Below are positions 35,108 through 40,729 of a stretch of 64,000 nt of DNA, one piece after another. The stretch's first letter is position 1. Each line of letters opens with the position of its first letter. A model generated the notes under the pieces. That model was not told the DNA's origin. It searched no databases and saw only the letters and a program-made list of their open reading frames with translations. The DNA is from Bacteroidia bacterium. GTDB taxonomy: Bacteria; Bacteroidota; Bacteroidia; Flavobacteriales_D; Cryomorphaceae. The stretch lies in contig JAUICL010000009.1 of NCBI GenBank assembly GCA_030427905.1, positions 1 through 64,000 on the forward strand, read 5' to 3'. The position numbers and the translations under genes are program-made.

Positions 35108-36400
35108 ATGAACATACCCTTGTCTAATTTGCCTCGCGTTGTCATTGTTGGCGGTGGTTTTGGGGGGCTCCAACTGGCTCGAAAGATAGACTCGAGCAAA
35201 TATCAAGTCGTACTTCTCGACAAGCATAATTATCACACCTTTCAACCTCTTTTGTACCAGGTGGCTACAGCTGGTCTCGAACCCGATAGCATTGCTTATC
35301 CGCTTCGCAAAATCTTCAAGCAAAAGGCCAATTTCTATTTTAGAATGTCGGAAGTGGAAGAGATCCACCCTGAGAAAAAAGAAATCGATACGTCTATAGG
35401 AACCTTTACCTACGACATTTTGGTTCTGGCTACTGGAACGGTCACCAACTTCTTTGGCAATAAGGATATAGAGCGGCTGGCAATGGGGATGAAGACCGTT
35501 CCCGAGGCCTTGAATATTCGTTCGCTCTTGCTTCAGAATTTCGAAGCTGCATTGCTTACCGATGACCTTTCTGAGCGTGAAAGCTTGATGAATGTGGTGA
35601 TTGTTGGGGCTGGTCCTACAGGAGTGGAGCTAGCTGGGGCCATCGCCGAGCTCAAAGCGCACGTACTGCCAATGGACTATCCCGATTTGGATTTCAGACG
35701 AATGAACATCCACTTGGTGGAAGGAAGCTCCCGGGTTTTGCCGCCTATGGCTGTGGAAAGTTCAGAGAAGGCGGCCCGCTATCTCGAAAAGCTCGGTGTG
35801 CAAGTTTGGTTGAATACGAGAGTGATGGACTATGATGGAAAGACCATAACCACTGACAAACAGCCTATGCATACTCAAACCTTGATTTGGGCAGCAGGCG
35901 TGACTTGCAATCCACCTGGTGGCATTCCGGCTGATGTCATTGAGCGAGGAAACCGCATTCGCGTGGATAGATACAGCCGTGTAGAAGGTTTCGAAGGACT
36001 ATATGCTATCGGCGATCTCGCGTATATGGAGACCCCAAAATACCCAAAAGGTCAGCCTCAGGTGGCTCAGCCAGCGATTCAACAAGGCGTACATCTGGCC
36101 AAAAACTTGAAGAACCAAGCTCTTGGGAAAGCCTTGGTGCCCTTTGAATACAAGGATCCCGGCTCAATGGCTACCGTAGGGCGATCACGAGCCGTGTGCG
36201 AATTACCTGGGTTTAAAACCCAGGGCGCCTTCGCTTGGTTTATCTGGCTTGTCGTTCACCTTATGGCCTTGGTTGGATGGCGAAATAGAGCCGTGGTATT
36301 CTTCAATTGGGCGTATAATTTCTTTAACTACAATCGCGATATCCGTTTAATCATTAGACCGTACAACCGGGTTCAGCGCCAGCTGGATGAAACGGATTAA
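35108..36400 (+). CDS. ndh: Type II NADH dehydrogenase (NDH-2)
   Basis: A 430-residue FAD enzyme that transfers electrons from NADH to quinone without pumping protons. FAD-binding GxGxxG is VVIVGGGFGGLQ near residues 11-22, followed by LLDKHNYHTFQPLLYQVATA, a hallmark of NDH-2. The NADH-binding motif is VIVGAGPTGVELAGA. The C-terminal WLVVHLMALVGWRNRAVVFF and FFNYNRDIRLII form the membrane-attached end. The gene is single; its stop codon overlaps the convergent Asp-box protein gene by four bases. Confidence 0.95.
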   Translation: MNIPLSNLPRVVIVGGGFGGLQLARKIDSSKYQVVLLDKHNYHTFQPLLYQVATAGLEPDSIAYPLRKIFKQKANFYFRMSEVEEIHPEKKEIDTSIGTFTYDILVLATGTVTNFFGNKDIERLAMGMKTVPEALNIRSLLLQNFEAALLTDDLSERESLMNVVIVGAGPTGVELAGAIAELKAHVLPMDYPDLDFRRMNIHLVEGSSRVLPPMAVESSEKAARYLEKLGVQVWLNTRVMDYDGKTITTDKQPMHTQTLIWAAGVTCNPPGGIPADVIERGNRIRVDRYSRVEGFEGLYAIGDLAYMETPKYPKGQPQVAQPAIQQGVHLAKNLKNQALGKALVPFEYKDPGSMATVGRSRAVCELPGFKTQGAFAWFIWLVVHLMALVGWRNRAVVFFNWAYNFFNYNRDIRLIIRPYNRVQRQLDETD

Positions 36401-38904
36401 TCAATCACTTTGATCTTTTTGCTGCCTAGTTTAACACCATCTTTTAAGACTGTGATTAAATATACACCTGATGGTAGTTCAGGAAGGCTAATTTGGTCTT
36501 GATCACTTCCCAATTTTCCAGCTCCTACCATTTTCCCAGAAAGGTCATGGATCGCATATTGATTTGAATCATCAAGGCCTTCGAGCTTTATGTGATCTCG
36601 GGCAGGGTTGGGGTAAACCAAGAAATCTAGCTCTGCGCCTTCATTTGTGTTGTCTGGATTTGTCAAGACTTCGCTCAGCGGTACCGACCAGATTGATTGA
36701 GCAAATGTACCCGCAACTAATCGGTTATCAATATGGTCAATAGCCAAGTCACTCACTACAATGTATGGCATATTGGCACCTACGCGTGACCAATTATCCC
36801 CACCATTTTCAGTTAGATAAACGCCGTTGTCTGTGGCAATGAACCAAATGCCTGGAGCGTATTCTTCAAAGTGATTAATTGGCATGGCAGGTAAATCACC
36901 TGTCACAGGTTCCCAGGTACTTCCGAAATCGGTACTTCTGTATAAATGCGAAGTGTTGTCATTGAGGCGATAGCCCGACAGGCAAACGAAGACAGTTCCT
37001 GCCGCTGTACTGGAACCTTTGATGTCGGTAACGTAGTAATTGGGCAGTCCGTCAGAAATATTCTCCCATTCTTCGGTATCGGGTTGGTGCACCCATACCA
37101 GTCCATCTGAAGTTCCTGCGTACAAAACATTTTCTTCGATTGGTGATTGCGTCAATGTGGAAATCGTTCTGTTTGAGTTATTGTCTACATCATCTACCAG
37201 TGATGGTGAAATAGGCAAGAAGGTGCCGTAAGGAGCAAAATCCATTCGGTACACGCGTTCCGTAGCAGCATAGAGCACGGTATTGTCAAAATGACTCATA
37301 ATGAACGGGCTATCCCAATTGCTCCGATCATCTGGATCTATTCCTTGGTCGGTGAGATTGATGAAGTCGAAGAATTCGTAGTCAATCGCGTAAAAATTGC
37401 CCCTTTGAGTTGTGCAATAGAAGATGTTTGGATTTACCGGATCGGGAATCGGCGTGAATCCATCCCCACCAAAAATCCGGATCCATGGATCGTCGGGGTT
37501 CTCGTCGGGACCTGATGTGCCGTTATCTTGCGCTCCACCATAATAAACGCTTCCTGTGAACGGGTCGGTTGCAATGCGGTAGAACTGTGTGTTTGGAATC
37601 TCATCCACATCTTGCCATCCTAAGCTAAATGGTTCAAGTCCGGTAGTAGTGCGGTACAACCCACCATCAGTAGCGAGCAGTATATCGCCATCTCCAATGT
37701 ACTCCATGTCGTGTTTATCGGCGTGTACTTCGTAGGTCCACCAATCTGGAACGCTTTGAAACCAGGTCGCACCGCCATCTGTGGTGCTATACATGTCTAC
37801 GCCCAATACAGATATTTCATCTTCATCGAAAGGGCTTAATCCCAATTTTGCAAAGTACCAGCCAAACCCACCGAGAGCGTTTTCGCCAATTCCATCCGTT
37901 GGTATTTCAGAAAATGAAGCCCCACTATCATTCGACTTGAAAATTCCCTGAAGCTGGGAATCCACCCCGACGTAAAGCGCATAAACTTTGCTCGGATCAA
38001 CATCCCAGAGCTTTAGCCCAATTCGCCCAACAGGGCCAGTCGGCAGGCCGTTCGTCAGCTCTGTCCAGTTTTCGCCTCCATCAGAAGTTTTGAAGATTCC
38101 ACCTTCATCGCCAGATACCACACTTTCGAATACGGTGCGAATTCTGTTCCAGTTGGCAACATAGATTTCTTCGGGATTAGAAGGATTCATCACCATATCG
38201 GTGATTCCCGAAGCTTCTGATACAGAGAAGATCTTAGTCCAAGATTGACCACCGTCATTACTGCGATATAGTCCACGATCTTCAGATTCAACAAAAGGAA
38301 CACCCATGGCACCGGCAAAAATCTGATCCGGATTATTGGGGTTTACCACTATTTTAGAGATGATTCGGCATTCTTCCAGACCGATGTACTCGAAGTTTTC
38401 ACCTCCATCTGTGCTTTTAAAAACACCACCACCGATCCAAACGGTACCAGGAACATTCGGGTCGCCTGTCCCGACATAGATTGTTTGTGAATTGGTAGGA
38501 TCAAAAACGATATCACTAATTGGAAGGTGGCTAATCTCATTTGTAATTGGCTCCCAGGATTCGCCTGCATCTGTGGTGCGATAAACGCCACCGCCTGCCG
38601 TTCCGCTCAGCCAAACATCATCGTTTTCCGGGTGAATGGCCACGCAATTAATTCGTCCTCCGATGTTGTAAGGACCATTTATCATCCATTCTGCGTCATC
38701 AGATTTTGCCGCGTCTTGGTTGGCAAACCGCTTGGCCCGTTTTAAGCTCTGATCCATGGCTGCGTAGTCCAAAATGCTATCTGGAAATGCGCGTTGGAAG
38801 AAGAAATGATCGAAAGGTTCGTGCTTAGATTCAAATTTATTTTCGGCACAAGATGCAATCAGGATAGCTGTGGTGAGCAGCCAAATTAGGTTTCTAAATT
38901 TCAT
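36397..38904 (-). CDS. Asp-box (VPS10/sortilin-like) lipoprotein with T9SS type A domain
   Basis: An 835-residue protein. N-terminus MKFRNLIWLLTTAILIASC ends in a lipobox (cysteine 19). The body holds many Asp-box repeats, e.g. YRTTDAGESW, FKSTDGGENF, YRSNDGGQSW and FKTSDGGENW, which build sortilin/VPS10-like propellers. The C-terminus is a T9SS type A domain (FLVYPNPARDHIKLEG; IHDLSGKMVGAGKL; LPSGVYLITVLKDG). Lipidation and T9SS export on one protein is unusual. An in-frame extension to 38988 lacks a signal peptide and was dropped. Confidence 0.9.
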   Translation of the reverse strand: MKFRNLIWLLTTAILIASCAENKFESKHEPFDHFFFQRAFPDSILDYAAMDQSLKRAKRFANQDAAKSDDAEWMINGPYNIGGRINCVAIHPENDDVWLSGTAGGGVYRTTDAGESWEPITNEISHLPISDIVFDPTNSQTIYVGTGDPNVPGTVWIGGGVFKSTDGGENFEYIGLEECRIISKIVVNPNNPDQIFAGAMGVPFVESEDRGLYRSNDGGQSWTKIFSVSEASGITDMVMNPSNPEEIYVANWNRIRTVFESVVSGDEGGIFKTSDGGENWTELTNGLPTGPVGRIGLKLWDVDPSKVYALYVGVDSQLQGIFKSNDSGASFSEIPTDGIGENALGGFGWYFAKLGLSPFDEDEISVLGVDMYSTTDGGATWFQSVPDWWTYEVHADKHDMEYIGDGDILLATDGGLYRTTTGLEPFSLGWQDVDEIPNTQFYRIATDPFTGSVYYGGAQDNGTSGPDENPDDPWIRIFGGDGFTPIPDPVNPNIFYCTTQRGNFYAIDYEFFDFINLTDQGIDPDDRSNWDSPFIMSHFDNTVLYAATERVYRMDFAPYGTFLPISPSLVDDVDNNSNRTISTLTQSPIEENVLYAGTSDGLVWVHQPDTEEWENISDGLPNYYVTDIKGSSTAAGTVFVCLSGYRLNDNTSHLYRSTDFGSTWEPVTGDLPAMPINHFEEYAPGIWFIATDNGVYLTENGGDNWSRVGANMPYIVVSDLAIDHIDNRLVAGTFAQSIWSVPLSEVLTNPDNTNEGAELDFLVYPNPARDHIKLEGLDDSNQYAIHDLSGKMVGAGKLGSDQDQISLPELPSGVYLITVLKDGVKLGSKKIKVID

Positions 38905-39054
38905 GTGATTCAGGCTTTTACATCGAACAATATCTGCATGATTCGACAAAAGAACAAAATCTGGATTCATCGTTTCTTTGATTTTCACCGTAGCCCTATC
39001 ATCGTTATTCGAATAGATTCAACTTTCTTTGAATAAACTGTGCAACTATTTGAA

Positions 39055-39657
39055 ATGAAAAGAGTCAATACTGACAAAGCAACAAATAGCGATTTGGAAG
39101 ACTTACAGTTGGCGAAGGCTTGTATTGACGGAAACGACCGTGCCCAGTCTCAGCTGTTTGAAAAGTATTCCGGTCAGATGATGGCTTTGTGCTTGAGATA
39201 TGGCTCTGATTATGAAGAAGCTCAGGACATGTTTCAAGACGGCTTTGTGAAGGTGTTTCAAAAGTTGCATCTGTACAATGGGAAGGGCCCCTTAGGCGCT
39301 TGGATCAGACGTACGATTGCAAACAACGCACTCGATCACATCAGACGGAATAAGCGTATGAAGGACAATGTCTCGCTTTTTGGCGTAGAGTATAAGCTTG
39401 AAGCAGAAGATACCATCGATCCATTCGAGGACGAAGGCCCGCTTCTAAGCAATGAACGGCTCACCGAGTTGATTCATACTATGCCGGTGGGATATCGTAC
39501 TGTTTTCAACCTCTATTGCGTGGAAGAATACAGTCATAAGGAGATAGCTGAACAACTTGGAATTACGGAAAGTACATCCAAAACTCAATACAGAAAAGCT
39601 AAAGCGTATATGCGCAAGCTTATTACAGAAGAATTAAAAGGTACTTATAGTGAATAA
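39055..39657 (+). CDS. ECF-type RNA polymerase sigma-70 factor
   Basis: A 200-residue sigma factor. Region 2: AQSQLFEKYSGQMMALCLRY and YEEAQDMFQDGFVKVFQKL, with region 2.4-like GAWIRRTIANNALDHIRRNK. Region 4: MPVGYRTVFNLYCVEEYSHK and IAEQLGITESTSKTQYRKAK. Both halves are complete. The ATG at 39055 is preferred over an in-frame GTG 15 bases earlier. The downstream gene begins within its last codons (GTGAATAA), so its product is the obvious partner. The target promoter is not evident. Confidence 0.94.
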   Translation: MKRVNTDKATNSDLEDLQLAKACIDGNDRAQSQLFEKYSGQMMALCLRYGSDYEEAQDMFQDGFVKVFQKLHLYNGKGPLGAWIRRTIANNALDHIRRNKRMKDNVSLFGVEYKLEAEDTIDPFEDEGPLLSNERLTELIHTMPVGYRTVFNLYCVEEYSHKEIAEQLGITESTSKTQYRKAKAYMRKLITEELKGTYSE

Positions 39658-40729
39658 GGACATTTTTGAAATAAAAATAGGAGAACAACTCCGAGATGCG
39701 AATGCTTCGGTTCCAAAAGGGGCCTGGGAAGCTATTCAATCGCAGGTTCAAGGCGGAAGCTCTGCTGTTTCGGCTTTCAAACCGAAACTTGGACTTTTGA
39801 TCGGTGGGGCCATGATGCTGTCATTGGCTTATTACAGTGCCAATCGATCAACTGTTGAGAGCCATGAAGGGGCATCAGTGCATCATGCGCAAATGGCTCA
39901 TGACGCGGATCTTCAGCCACAGAAAGCCCAAAAGGCAAATTCTCTCAAAGCGGTCGAGTCAGAAGGGCAAAAGCTACCTGAGTCGCATGCTCAGATTGCC
40001 GTTGTAGAGAAGTCACCTTCGTCTATAGTTGTGAACGACGCGGTAGAAGTGCGTGAAGTAGAAGCCTTTGAGCTTGATGAAATGCCGATAAACTCAGTAA
40101 ACCAAGTCCAAACTCAGGATCGAGTTGAATCGCCAAAGATTCAAACTGTTGTAAAAGCCCCTGAGGAAATGATTCAGGAAGAAGTTGCTGCTGCTGTTGA
40201 AACCGCCCAAATAGACGCAATAATCGGAGCAAGTGAAATTTTCGGTTACGCCCCGCTTAAGGTGAAGTTTGATAATCTAGGCGATGGGGATTCTTACGCA
40301 TGGGACTTCGGTAAATGGGGTGGATCGCGTGAGAAGTCACCAGAAGTCACTTTTGAAGAACCGGGTACGTACGTGGTTTATCTTACCGTAACCAGCGATG
40401 ACGGTCAGGAGTCGGTAGATCAAATACAAGTGAAGGTGCAAGAAGGTTCAAGCCTGACTGTACACAACGCCTTCTCACCGAATGGAGATGGGATAAACGA
40501 CACCTACAAAATAGAAGGTGCCTACAATATCGAATCATTCTTGATGATCATCACCAACCAACGTGGGGAGATCGTATTCCAAACCCGTGACATCAATGAA
40601 GGGTGGTCTTATGATGCAACCGTTCATGGTGGAGATGGCGACTCATACTTCGTGACCTACAAAGCTGTTGGTGTGGATGGACGAGTTCACGCAGCCGAAA
40701 GAATGGCATTGAACATAGTCGGATATTAA
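39650..40729 (+). CDS. One-pass membrane protein: anti-sigma-like N-terminus, PKD domain, gliding/T9SS C-terminal domain
   Basis: A 359-residue protein coupled to the ECF sigma gene by an 8-base overlap and a GTG start. Residues 1-45 are a short cytoplasmic region (FEIKIGEQLRDANASVPKGA) of the kind found in Bacteroidota anti-sigma factors, followed by one uncleaved membrane helix at about 47-62 (LGLLIGGAMMLSLAYY). Residues 65-188 are a polar linker rich in E, Q and A. A PKD domain spans about 189-265 (YAPLKVKFDNLGDGDSYAWD; EEPGTYVVYLTVTSDDGQ). Residues 270-359 match the gliding-motility-associated/T9SS type B C-terminal domain (NAFSPNGDGINDTYKIEG; IITNQRGEIVFQ; GWSYDATVHGGDGDSYFV). The mixture implies signalling across the envelope rather than ordinary cargo. 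Role inferred. Confidence 0.8.
   Translation: MNKDIFEIKIGEQLRDANASVPKGAWEAIQSQVQGGSSAVSAFKPKLGLLIGGAMMLSLAYYSANRSTVESHEGASVHHAQMAHDADLQPQKAQKANSLKAVESEGQKLPESHAQIAVVEKSPSSIVVNDAVEVREVEAFELDEMPINSVNQVQTQDRVESPKIQTVVKAPEEMIQEEVAAAVETAQIDAIIGASEIFGYAPLKVKFDNLGDGDSYAWDFGKWGGSREKSPEVTFEEPGTYVVYLTVTSDDGQESVDQIQVKVQEGSSLTVHNAFSPNGDGINDTYKIEGAYNIESFLMIITNQRGEIVFQTRDINEGWSYDATVHGGDGDSYFVTYKAVGVDGRVHAAERMALNIVGY

Follow-up and report, generated by a model that had tools for sequence, protein, structure and literature searches.

A predicted anti-sigma factor carrying a type B T9SS sorting domain, conserved with its ECF sigma factor: a possible feedback loop on secreted cargo

Introduction

Why should a protein that resembles the anti-sigma factor of an extracytoplasmic function (ECF) sigma factor end in the sorting domain of type IX secretion system (T9SS) cargo? 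The question is raised by a stretch of DNA from a Bacteroidia bacterium of the Cryomorphaceae (assembly GCA_030427905.1, contig JAUICL010000009.1, positions 1 to 64,000; this whole stretch of 64,000 nucleotides is called the window, and positions without a contig label refer to it), in which an ECF sigma factor gene at 39055-39657 (+) is followed by a gene at 39650-40729 (+) for a predicted membrane protein with a PKD domain and a type B T9SS C-terminal domain (CTD). We favor the possibility that this protein is an anti-sigma factor that is tethered, mimics cargo and takes part in feedback control of type B T9SS cargo, with a logic like that of FlgM, and we put the probability of this reading only a little above one half (about 0.52). 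The matter bears on how Bacteroidota match the production of T9SS cargo to their capacity for exporting it: in a pair conserved across an order, the predicted anti-sigma factor bears a cargo tag, and one promoter element precedes both the sigma operon and some cargo genes, which opens a feedback loop to direct test.

Results

The open reading frame (ORF) at 39055-39657 has both the sigma2 and sigma4 regions of an ECF sigma factor, with Sigma70_r2 and Sigma70_r4_2 above their cut-offs and TIGR02937 at 99.5 bits (cut-off 42.9). The second gene overlaps it by 8 bases, its GTG start lying inside the sigma ORF, and encodes 359 residues. Pfam recognizes a PKD domain at residues 189-265 (40214-40444; PKD_4 37.4 bits, cut-off 27; PKD 30.4 bits, cut-off 23.5) ahead of the type B CTD at residues 268-359 (40451-40726; CHU_C 42.6 bits, cut-off 27). 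A preliminary description made from the letters of the window had proposed this order of genes and domains, which the ORFs and profile matches bear out. It had also called the type B domain complete, which is too strong for the sequence, although the predicted fold is a confident one: AlphaFold2, run on an alignment of 60 proteins, modeled residues of about 190-357 confidently (predicted local distance difference test, pLDDT, mostly above 90 in the PKD domain and CTD, up to residue ~357), whereas CHU_C matched only over profile positions 2-53 of 86 and TIGR04131 stayed below its cut-off (29.5 against 35). Both matches end near residue 320, and the protein closes with NIVGY, without the terminal basic residue typical of most cargo. 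A Foldseek search with the whole model matched solved PKD domains (for example 2y72, TM-score 0.81 by target length) and generic Ig-like proteins, and nothing T9SS-specific was recognized among the 50 matches listed.

Ahead of these domains lie an N-terminal module at residues 1-40 (39650-39769), presumed cytoplasmic and sigma-binding, a membrane segment at residues 47-63 (39788-39838) placed by hydropathy and alignments, and a disordered tether at residues 66-185 (39845-40204). AlphaFold2 gave the module helices at residues 5-15 and 25-33 with moderate confidence, and residues ~36-185 low confidence; the module also has a conserved tryptophan, W26. The N-terminal module and the CTD are the most conserved parts of the protein, at a mean information per column of 2.25 bits for the N-terminal 40 residues and 2.20 for the CTD, compared with 1.74 for the PKD domain and 1.10 for the linker. 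CHU_C and TIGR04131 match all 60 aligned proteins and PKD_4 matches 58 of them (all at E ≤ 0.01). In the linker it is length, not sequence, that has been kept (median 124.5 residues, range 98-153 in the 60 aligned proteins); since an extended chain covers about 0.36 nm per residue, a tether of ~120 residues can be long enough to cross the periplasm.

The pairing of the two genes is conserved. When 199 genomes of the order were searched with the window protein, an ECF gene was present at 27 of the 30 best loci, the other three being a locus at a contig edge (L054) and two with long ORFs of cargo size (L055, L056). A search with an alignment profile, which covered 245 genomes of the order at least 90% complete and scored 8 candidates in each, found a full-length match (query start at most 6) at E ≤ 1e-40 in at least 52 genomes. 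Among 63 distinct full-length ORFs, chiefly from the same order and including the window's own, 62 have an ECF gene directly upstream, with start-to-stop offsets of -25 to +29 bases (overlapping or within 29), and the sole exception (L248) begins at a contig edge. These 62 pairs include a paralogous pair of the same genome (L273) and pairs from two metagenome-assembled genomes (MAGs), Flavobacteriales MAG NORP67 (L092) and Bacteroidetes MAG RUG11592 (L167). All seven pairs of the family to which the window's pair belongs share a GTG start and an overlap of 8 bases; an eighth family genome (G041), whose ORF is split by a stop, was left out. Chance gene neighborhood, or a chance fusion in one genome, was considered as an explanation and rejected on the 62 of 63 ORFs that follow an ECF gene.

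The descent of both genes fits a mainly vertical pattern, because in trees the pair sigma factors fall into lineages, as do the pair CTDs: a tree of 59 sigma factors needed 2 label changes (shuffled mean 24), and one of 60 pair CTDs and 105 cargo CTDs needed 4 (shuffled mean 49). Both were quick trees with many long branches. A wide spread of the pair beyond the order is not supported, because in a phylum sample of 395 genomes, with 4 candidates scored in each, the full architecture occurred only in the window's genome (G000) and in G009 among the matches listed. Among named genomes, a search with the single protein gave no match, and the alignment search gave mostly cargo, with the pair only in L092 and L167 of the 80 loci kept.

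Profiles for anti-sigma factors in Pfam and NCBIfam did not match the window protein, and NCBIfam NF052375 ('anti-sigma factor') matched 1 of 60 relatives, at 2e-4. A 41-position profile of the N-terminal module, run over 5,864 ORFs of the collected loci, had as its best match outside the family L070 (E 7e-5), an outer-membrane barrel carrier (Autotransporter beta-domain 29.5 bits, cut-off 26), while the next outside match, L066, was not significant (E 0.3). Both are sigma-adjacent and belong to the same genome as the window. The anti-sigma role proposed earlier is strongly supported as a prediction, because the operon is conserved (62 of 63), descent appears largely vertical and the N-terminal module is common to another sigma-adjacent membrane protein.

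Whether the protein would stay in the inner membrane depends on its hydrophobic segment. The core of this segment starts at residue 44-62 or 47-65, by window size, in all 62 pair proteins (residues 1-100 scanned), compared with residue 4-21 in 39 CHU_C proteins of the same genome (one fitting ATG per gene). For 38 of the 40 CHU_C genes with fetched 5' ends (out of 42 besides the window gene), some ATG places the first hydrophobic core within ~21 residues, the exceptions being an ORF fragment (L302) and L310. A conserved stretch of 37-49 residues precedes the membrane segment in all 60 aligned proteins. A strict cleavage site, AxA[QDE], occurs in none of 60 pair proteins, but in only 6 of 39 cargo proteins. 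Of the earlier proposal of an uncleaved helix and retention in the inner membrane, the part that rests on position is supported; the site test does not discriminate, and the segment of the window protein has the lowest hydropathy among the 62 scored (1.50 on the Kyte-Doolittle scale over 17 residues, median 2.19), so that the case for a membrane helix in this protein rests on its family. Because of the long conserved N-terminus and the sigma coupling, we take retention to be probable, position being its support and the strict site being too rare in cargo to be informative. A signal-peptide reading is unlikely from the position of the hydrophobic segment.

The promoter regions tie the pair to other genes. 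ECF promoters have the shape AAC ... GTC, and an element CAAC-N16..18-GTC/ATC lies before 59 of 62 sigma genes of the pairs (200 shuffles: mean 2.8, maximum 8). Spacing peaks at 17 (10 loci) and 18 (39 loci), with 0-2 loci at each other spacing from 8 to 29. Most families have GCAACCTTT-N-AGTCTA (CAAC-N18-GTC), and families f1 and f2 have CAACTATT-N13-AGTCA-like elements (CAAC-N17-GTC). The element thus has the shape of an ECF-type promoter, and in the window the predicted promoter is CAACTATT-N13-GTCA (CAAC-N17-GTC) at 39043-39067 (+). The annotated ATG at 39055 falls between its two boxes; because the boxes flank that position, the sigma protein may start later, for example at the in-frame TTG at 39094. 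When the 20 sigma genes of the genome were scored with a matrix that left out the window's promoter and included that of L273, the window's scored 22.0, the paralogue's 19.5 and the other 18 at most 11.4. We infer that the operon is autoregulated.

Elements of this type also stand before some cargo genes. A first pattern, taken from the sigma promoters alone, had 21 matches in the whole genome at no more than one mismatch (reversed control 16). Only two were exact: the one at this operon and one 20 bases before the start of a CHU_C gene with a frame of 1287 amino acids. For three of the 21, the site coincides with the promoter position of a CHU_C gene (by our own arithmetic ~0.03 such direct cases would be expected), and two further ones precede a small secreted gene that is followed by a CHU_C gene. 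The exact core CAAC-N17-GTCA occurred within 280 bases around the start in 6 of 41 CHU_C genes (one of them without a usable start) and in none of 156 other genes, these controls being simple ORF calls from the window and seven 20-kb stretches. With altered cores the counts were 0/41 and 0/156 (N13), 0/41 and 1/156 (N21), 0/41 and 7/156 (wider wrong spacings) and 1/41 and 1/156 (reversed orientation). With both patterns, the second of which is described below, promoter-placed matches were found for 6 of 42 type B genes versus 3 of 150 type A genes (150 scored of 203 first-look candidates). A matrix scan confined to cargo promoters separated 39 cargo genes only moderately from 157 controls that still included the window's sigma gene (Mann-Whitney p 0.003). 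It is only the placement of the matches, not their total number, that is special.

The same search in five other genomes of three genera gave 78 matches (reversed control 81). Of 11 exact ones, five are the sigma operon itself and two stand before CTD genes (L451, and L452 after a small secreted gene); L454 leads to a small secreted gene together with a long, unfinished ORF, L450 to a small secreted gene, and behind L464 and L465 nothing recognizable was found. Ten one-mismatch sites were picked for promoter-like context, and four of them (L453, L455, L460 by way of its third ORF, and L461) lead to CTD genes; behind the remaining six no such gene is visible, two of these running off the stretch. 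In other families, motif-led CTD operons were seen in 6 of 16 regions fetched.

Some genes behind such elements are worth recording. Small secreted proteins of 120-142 residues that match nothing in Pfam lie directly behind the element at five loci, L346:1549-1974 (+), L348:1543-1923 (+), L455:6485-6847 (-), L452:196-573 (+) and L450:342-701 (+), and at four of the five a type B CTD gene follows. Those of L348 and L455, which come from different families, are relatives of each other (25% identity across 114 residues, E 9e-9). A gene at L396:111-509 (-) (G000:C1 near 762.3-762.8 kb), with an ECF-type element upstream, encodes a 133-residue protein with little beyond a signal peptide and a type B CTD (37 bits), which makes it a candidate competitor of the anti-sigma CTD. 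At L343 (G000:C2:144501-144525) a site with one mismatch to the sigma-derived pattern stands ~235 bases ahead of a further ECF gene (L067), which may connect different sigma factors.

The paralogous ECF/anti-sigma pair of the same genome, here called type 2, lies at about G000:C3:535832-537623 (L273, L323). Its predicted anti-sigma factor has 431 residues, with PKD above the cut-off by two models and CHU_C below it (19.1 against 27); the pair has its own promoter type, GGCAACC-N-CGTCT, and the protein ends in a PKD domain and a degenerate CTD-like domain. Of 60 genomes of the order, 23 gave a match to the type 2 protein at E ≤ 1e-20, and an ECF gene lies upstream at all 12 type 2 loci fetched. 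In an AlphaFold2 model made on 12 sequences, the type 2 C-terminal strand order is similar to that of the window protein by our own reading of the strand lists, and a helix appears at residues 42-68 at low confidence.

As for the surroundings, the genome carries a T9SS, since SprA was found at 2546 bits. A type A T9SS cargo gene with BNR/sortilin repeats at 36400-38907 (-) runs divergently from the sigma gene. In G030, too, a 50% identical relative is divergent from the pair, and none was seen at the same place in the other four family loci read. An NADH-dehydrogenase-like gene, named by eye, lies upstream in all six family loci read, and DUF3810 and prolyl-oligopeptidase-like genes (the latter by eye) lie downstream in five, the sixth contig ending there. 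The two downstream genes likewise follow the pair at the f2 locus, and none of the three neighbors is present at the f3 locus.

Discussion

A plausible scenario joining these observations is as follows. The sigma factor and anti-sigma factor would be made from an autoregulated operon, and the sigma factor would also drive type B T9SS cargo genes. The short N-terminal module would hold the sigma factor while the protein stays anchored in the inner membrane, and the tether of ~120 residues would display the PKD and type B sorting domains, as a mimic of cargo, toward the outer membrane. Free type B export sites would engage the mimic, and a pull, displacement or later proteolysis would release the sigma factor and thereby raise cargo production; cargo that saturates the sites would outcompete the mimic and leave the sigma factor bound. 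The operon, the architecture, their conservation and the element found ahead of the sigma gene and of a number of type B cargo genes can be read from the DNA itself, and from these we infer the binding of sigma, the engagement of the T9SS, the release step and its direction, and the use of this sigma factor rather than its paralogue at the cargo promoters. A more specific version, which we hold tentatively and would not back at even odds, is that of a secretion-coupled switch in which the type B domain is a decoy on a tether of conserved length, gripped and pulled by idle motor-driven T9SS or PorP-like receptors, with force or displacement freeing the sigma factor that makes cargo.

Several points weigh against the feedback loop. 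With regard to the promoters, 35 of the 41 CHU_C genes are without the exact core; one gene that has it (L303) is poorly promoter-like outside the core; the second pattern, CAACTTTT-N12-CGTCA, was chosen after the cargo matches had been seen and is not independent; and total counts show little or no excess over the reversed control (21/16, 17/9 and 78/81). Furthermore, the -10 box is mostly CGTCA in cargo, AGTCA at this sigma factor's promoter and mostly CGTCT in the paralogous CTD-bearing pairs, so the paralogous pair may own some of the cargo promoters. With regard to the protein, AlphaFold2 gave no helix at residues 47-63 of the window protein, and behind the hydrophobic core a loose signal-peptidase site occurs in 32 of 60 pair proteins versus 33 of 39 cargo proteins. 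Within the window's own family only 2 of 7 CTDs have K or R in the last two residues (45 of 62 pair proteins overall and 26 of 30 cargo CTDs inspected do); because this terminal basic residue is mostly lost, the T9SS may have ceased to recognize the family's CTD. Finally, a PorP/SprF gene was present at 1 of 62 pair loci, at the locus edge, and in no operon.

The ownership of the cargo promoters leads to the rival that we take most seriously, though we consider it somewhat doubtful: that they are served by another ECF factor, most likely that of the type 2 pair (G000:C3:535.8-537.6 kb), and that the regulon of the window's sigma factor is unrelated. Their CGTC -10 box is mostly nearer to type 2 (GGCAACC...CGTCT/A) than to AGTCA, and one motif-bearing cargo gene (L318, start near C3:537984) adjoins the type 2 operon, which ends at C3:537623. 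However, CAACT and GTCA are common to the cargo promoters and the window's sigma promoter, and apart from the window's own promoter the genome holds only one exact match to the sigma-derived pattern, at a cargo promoter. Motif-led CTD operons also occur in the f8 genomes G170 and G180, and the type 2 protein is unmatched (E ≤ 1e-20) in 12 other f8 genomes, G170 and G180 lying outside that sample. As this explanation overlaps with the others and with the feedback loop itself, the odds of the several readings do not sum to one. The same promoter element decides our preference over an envelope sensor of the Dma type, in which the CTD would be only an outer-membrane anchor (by a PorP-like barrel or a surface glycan) in place of a beta-barrel, and the signal would be the state of the envelope, not secretion traffic. 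The plan of N-terminal module, membrane helix, disordered tether and distal outer-membrane module is the same as that outlined for Dma (PMC13088901), a barrel-carrying pair with a related N-terminus exists in the same genome, and type B CTDs are described as binding PorP-like barrels, with PG1035 keeping its CTD in Porphyromonas gingivalis (PMC9143113). Yet recurrence of the element before type B cargo genes is predicted by T9SS sensing and not by a generic envelope sensor, and because it does recur there we rank the feedback loop higher and regard the sensor as unlikely.

Two further explanations take the CTD itself in other ways. In one, the PKD domain and CTD are a former cargo module, now a periplasmic ligand-binding sensor that the T9SS never touches, which would accord with the absence of a basic end from 5 of the 7 pairs in the window's family, with the partial profile match of the CTD and with an operon that has no PorP/SprF partner gene; but the CTD is as conserved as the N-terminal module, CHU_C and TIGR04131 match every aligned protein and the basic end is kept by most pairs outside the window's family, so that we think this improbable. 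That the protein is ordinary secreted cargo, its hydrophobic segment being a signal peptide and the N-terminus before it either misread or unusually long, strikes us as very improbable. It does have a CHU_C domain, its membrane segment is the least hydrophobic of its family and the loose signal-peptidase sites counted above are consistent with cleavage; against this, the conserved residues before the segment in 60 of 60 proteins contrast with cores starting at residue 4-21 in cargo, and the coupling to sigma is itself conserved.

There is precedent for several parts of the scenario. Dma is a family of dual membrane-spanning anti-sigma factors of Bacteroides thetaiotaomicron that goes with ECF21-type Das sigma factors and, as far as the source describes it, shares with the window protein an adjacent sigma gene, an N-terminal module, a membrane segment (placed here by hydropathy only), a long disordered tether and a distal module that could extend as far as the outer membrane, also in a member of the Bacteroidota (PMC13088901). 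It differs in ending in an outer-membrane beta-barrel, where the window protein has a PKD and a type B T9SS domain, and in that the predicted targets of the window pair include T9SS cargo genes. By eye, two sigma-adjacent genes of the window's genome, L070 (G000:C8:73385) and L077 (G000:C10:65239, just outside the window), have a Dma-like plan, and of these only L070 has a barrel domain above the cut-off. If our reading holds, the Dma class of envelope-spanning anti-sigma factors would be extended to one with an interchangeable distal module.

T9SS genes have been linked to ECF factors before. In P. gingivalis, PorA, a CTD-bearing surface protein with a signal peptide, acts upstream of the ECF sigma factor SigP via PorXY (PMC7712824). 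There, too, a protein with a CTD acts ahead of an ECF factor that has T9SS genes under its control; however, PorA is no anti-sigma factor but works by way of a two-component system, and the inputs described in that account (PorXY, SigP and PorA) concern T9SS component genes, which are its reported targets. SM6 promoters of Flavobacterium psychrophilum, an ECF-type motif with CGT in the -10 region, precede gldN, porU and an ECF/anti-sigma pair (anti-sigma factor THC0290_1773), and their targets as listed are T9SS components, compared with cargo here (PMC9723704). Type B cargo such as SprB and PG1035 is described as bound by PorP-like proteins, and the CTD of PG1035 appears to be uncleaved (PMC9143113). 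The window protein shares the CHU_C/TIGR04131 domain with such cargo, but its membrane segment lies behind a long N-terminal module instead of being an N-terminal signal peptide, and its operon has no PorP/SprF gene.

Searches of the open-licence literature listed no description of an anti-sigma factor that bears a T9SS sorting domain. The closest parallel in logic is FlgM, a soluble anti-sigma factor that is exported whole by the flagellar type III system and controls FliA, the sigma factor for late cargo. In both cases an anti-sigma factor read by a secretion system would control the sigma factor for that system's late cargo, and the promoter element found before type B cargo genes would fit this if the sigma factor that serves them is this one rather than another, most likely its paralogue. 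Unlike FlgM, the window protein is predicted to be membrane-anchored and would use another secretion system, whose engagement of it we propose from its domains. If this is true, it would be, to our knowledge, the first case of FlgM-like control in a secretion system that is not related to the type III family, with an anti-sigma factor that is read as cargo while remaining in the cell.

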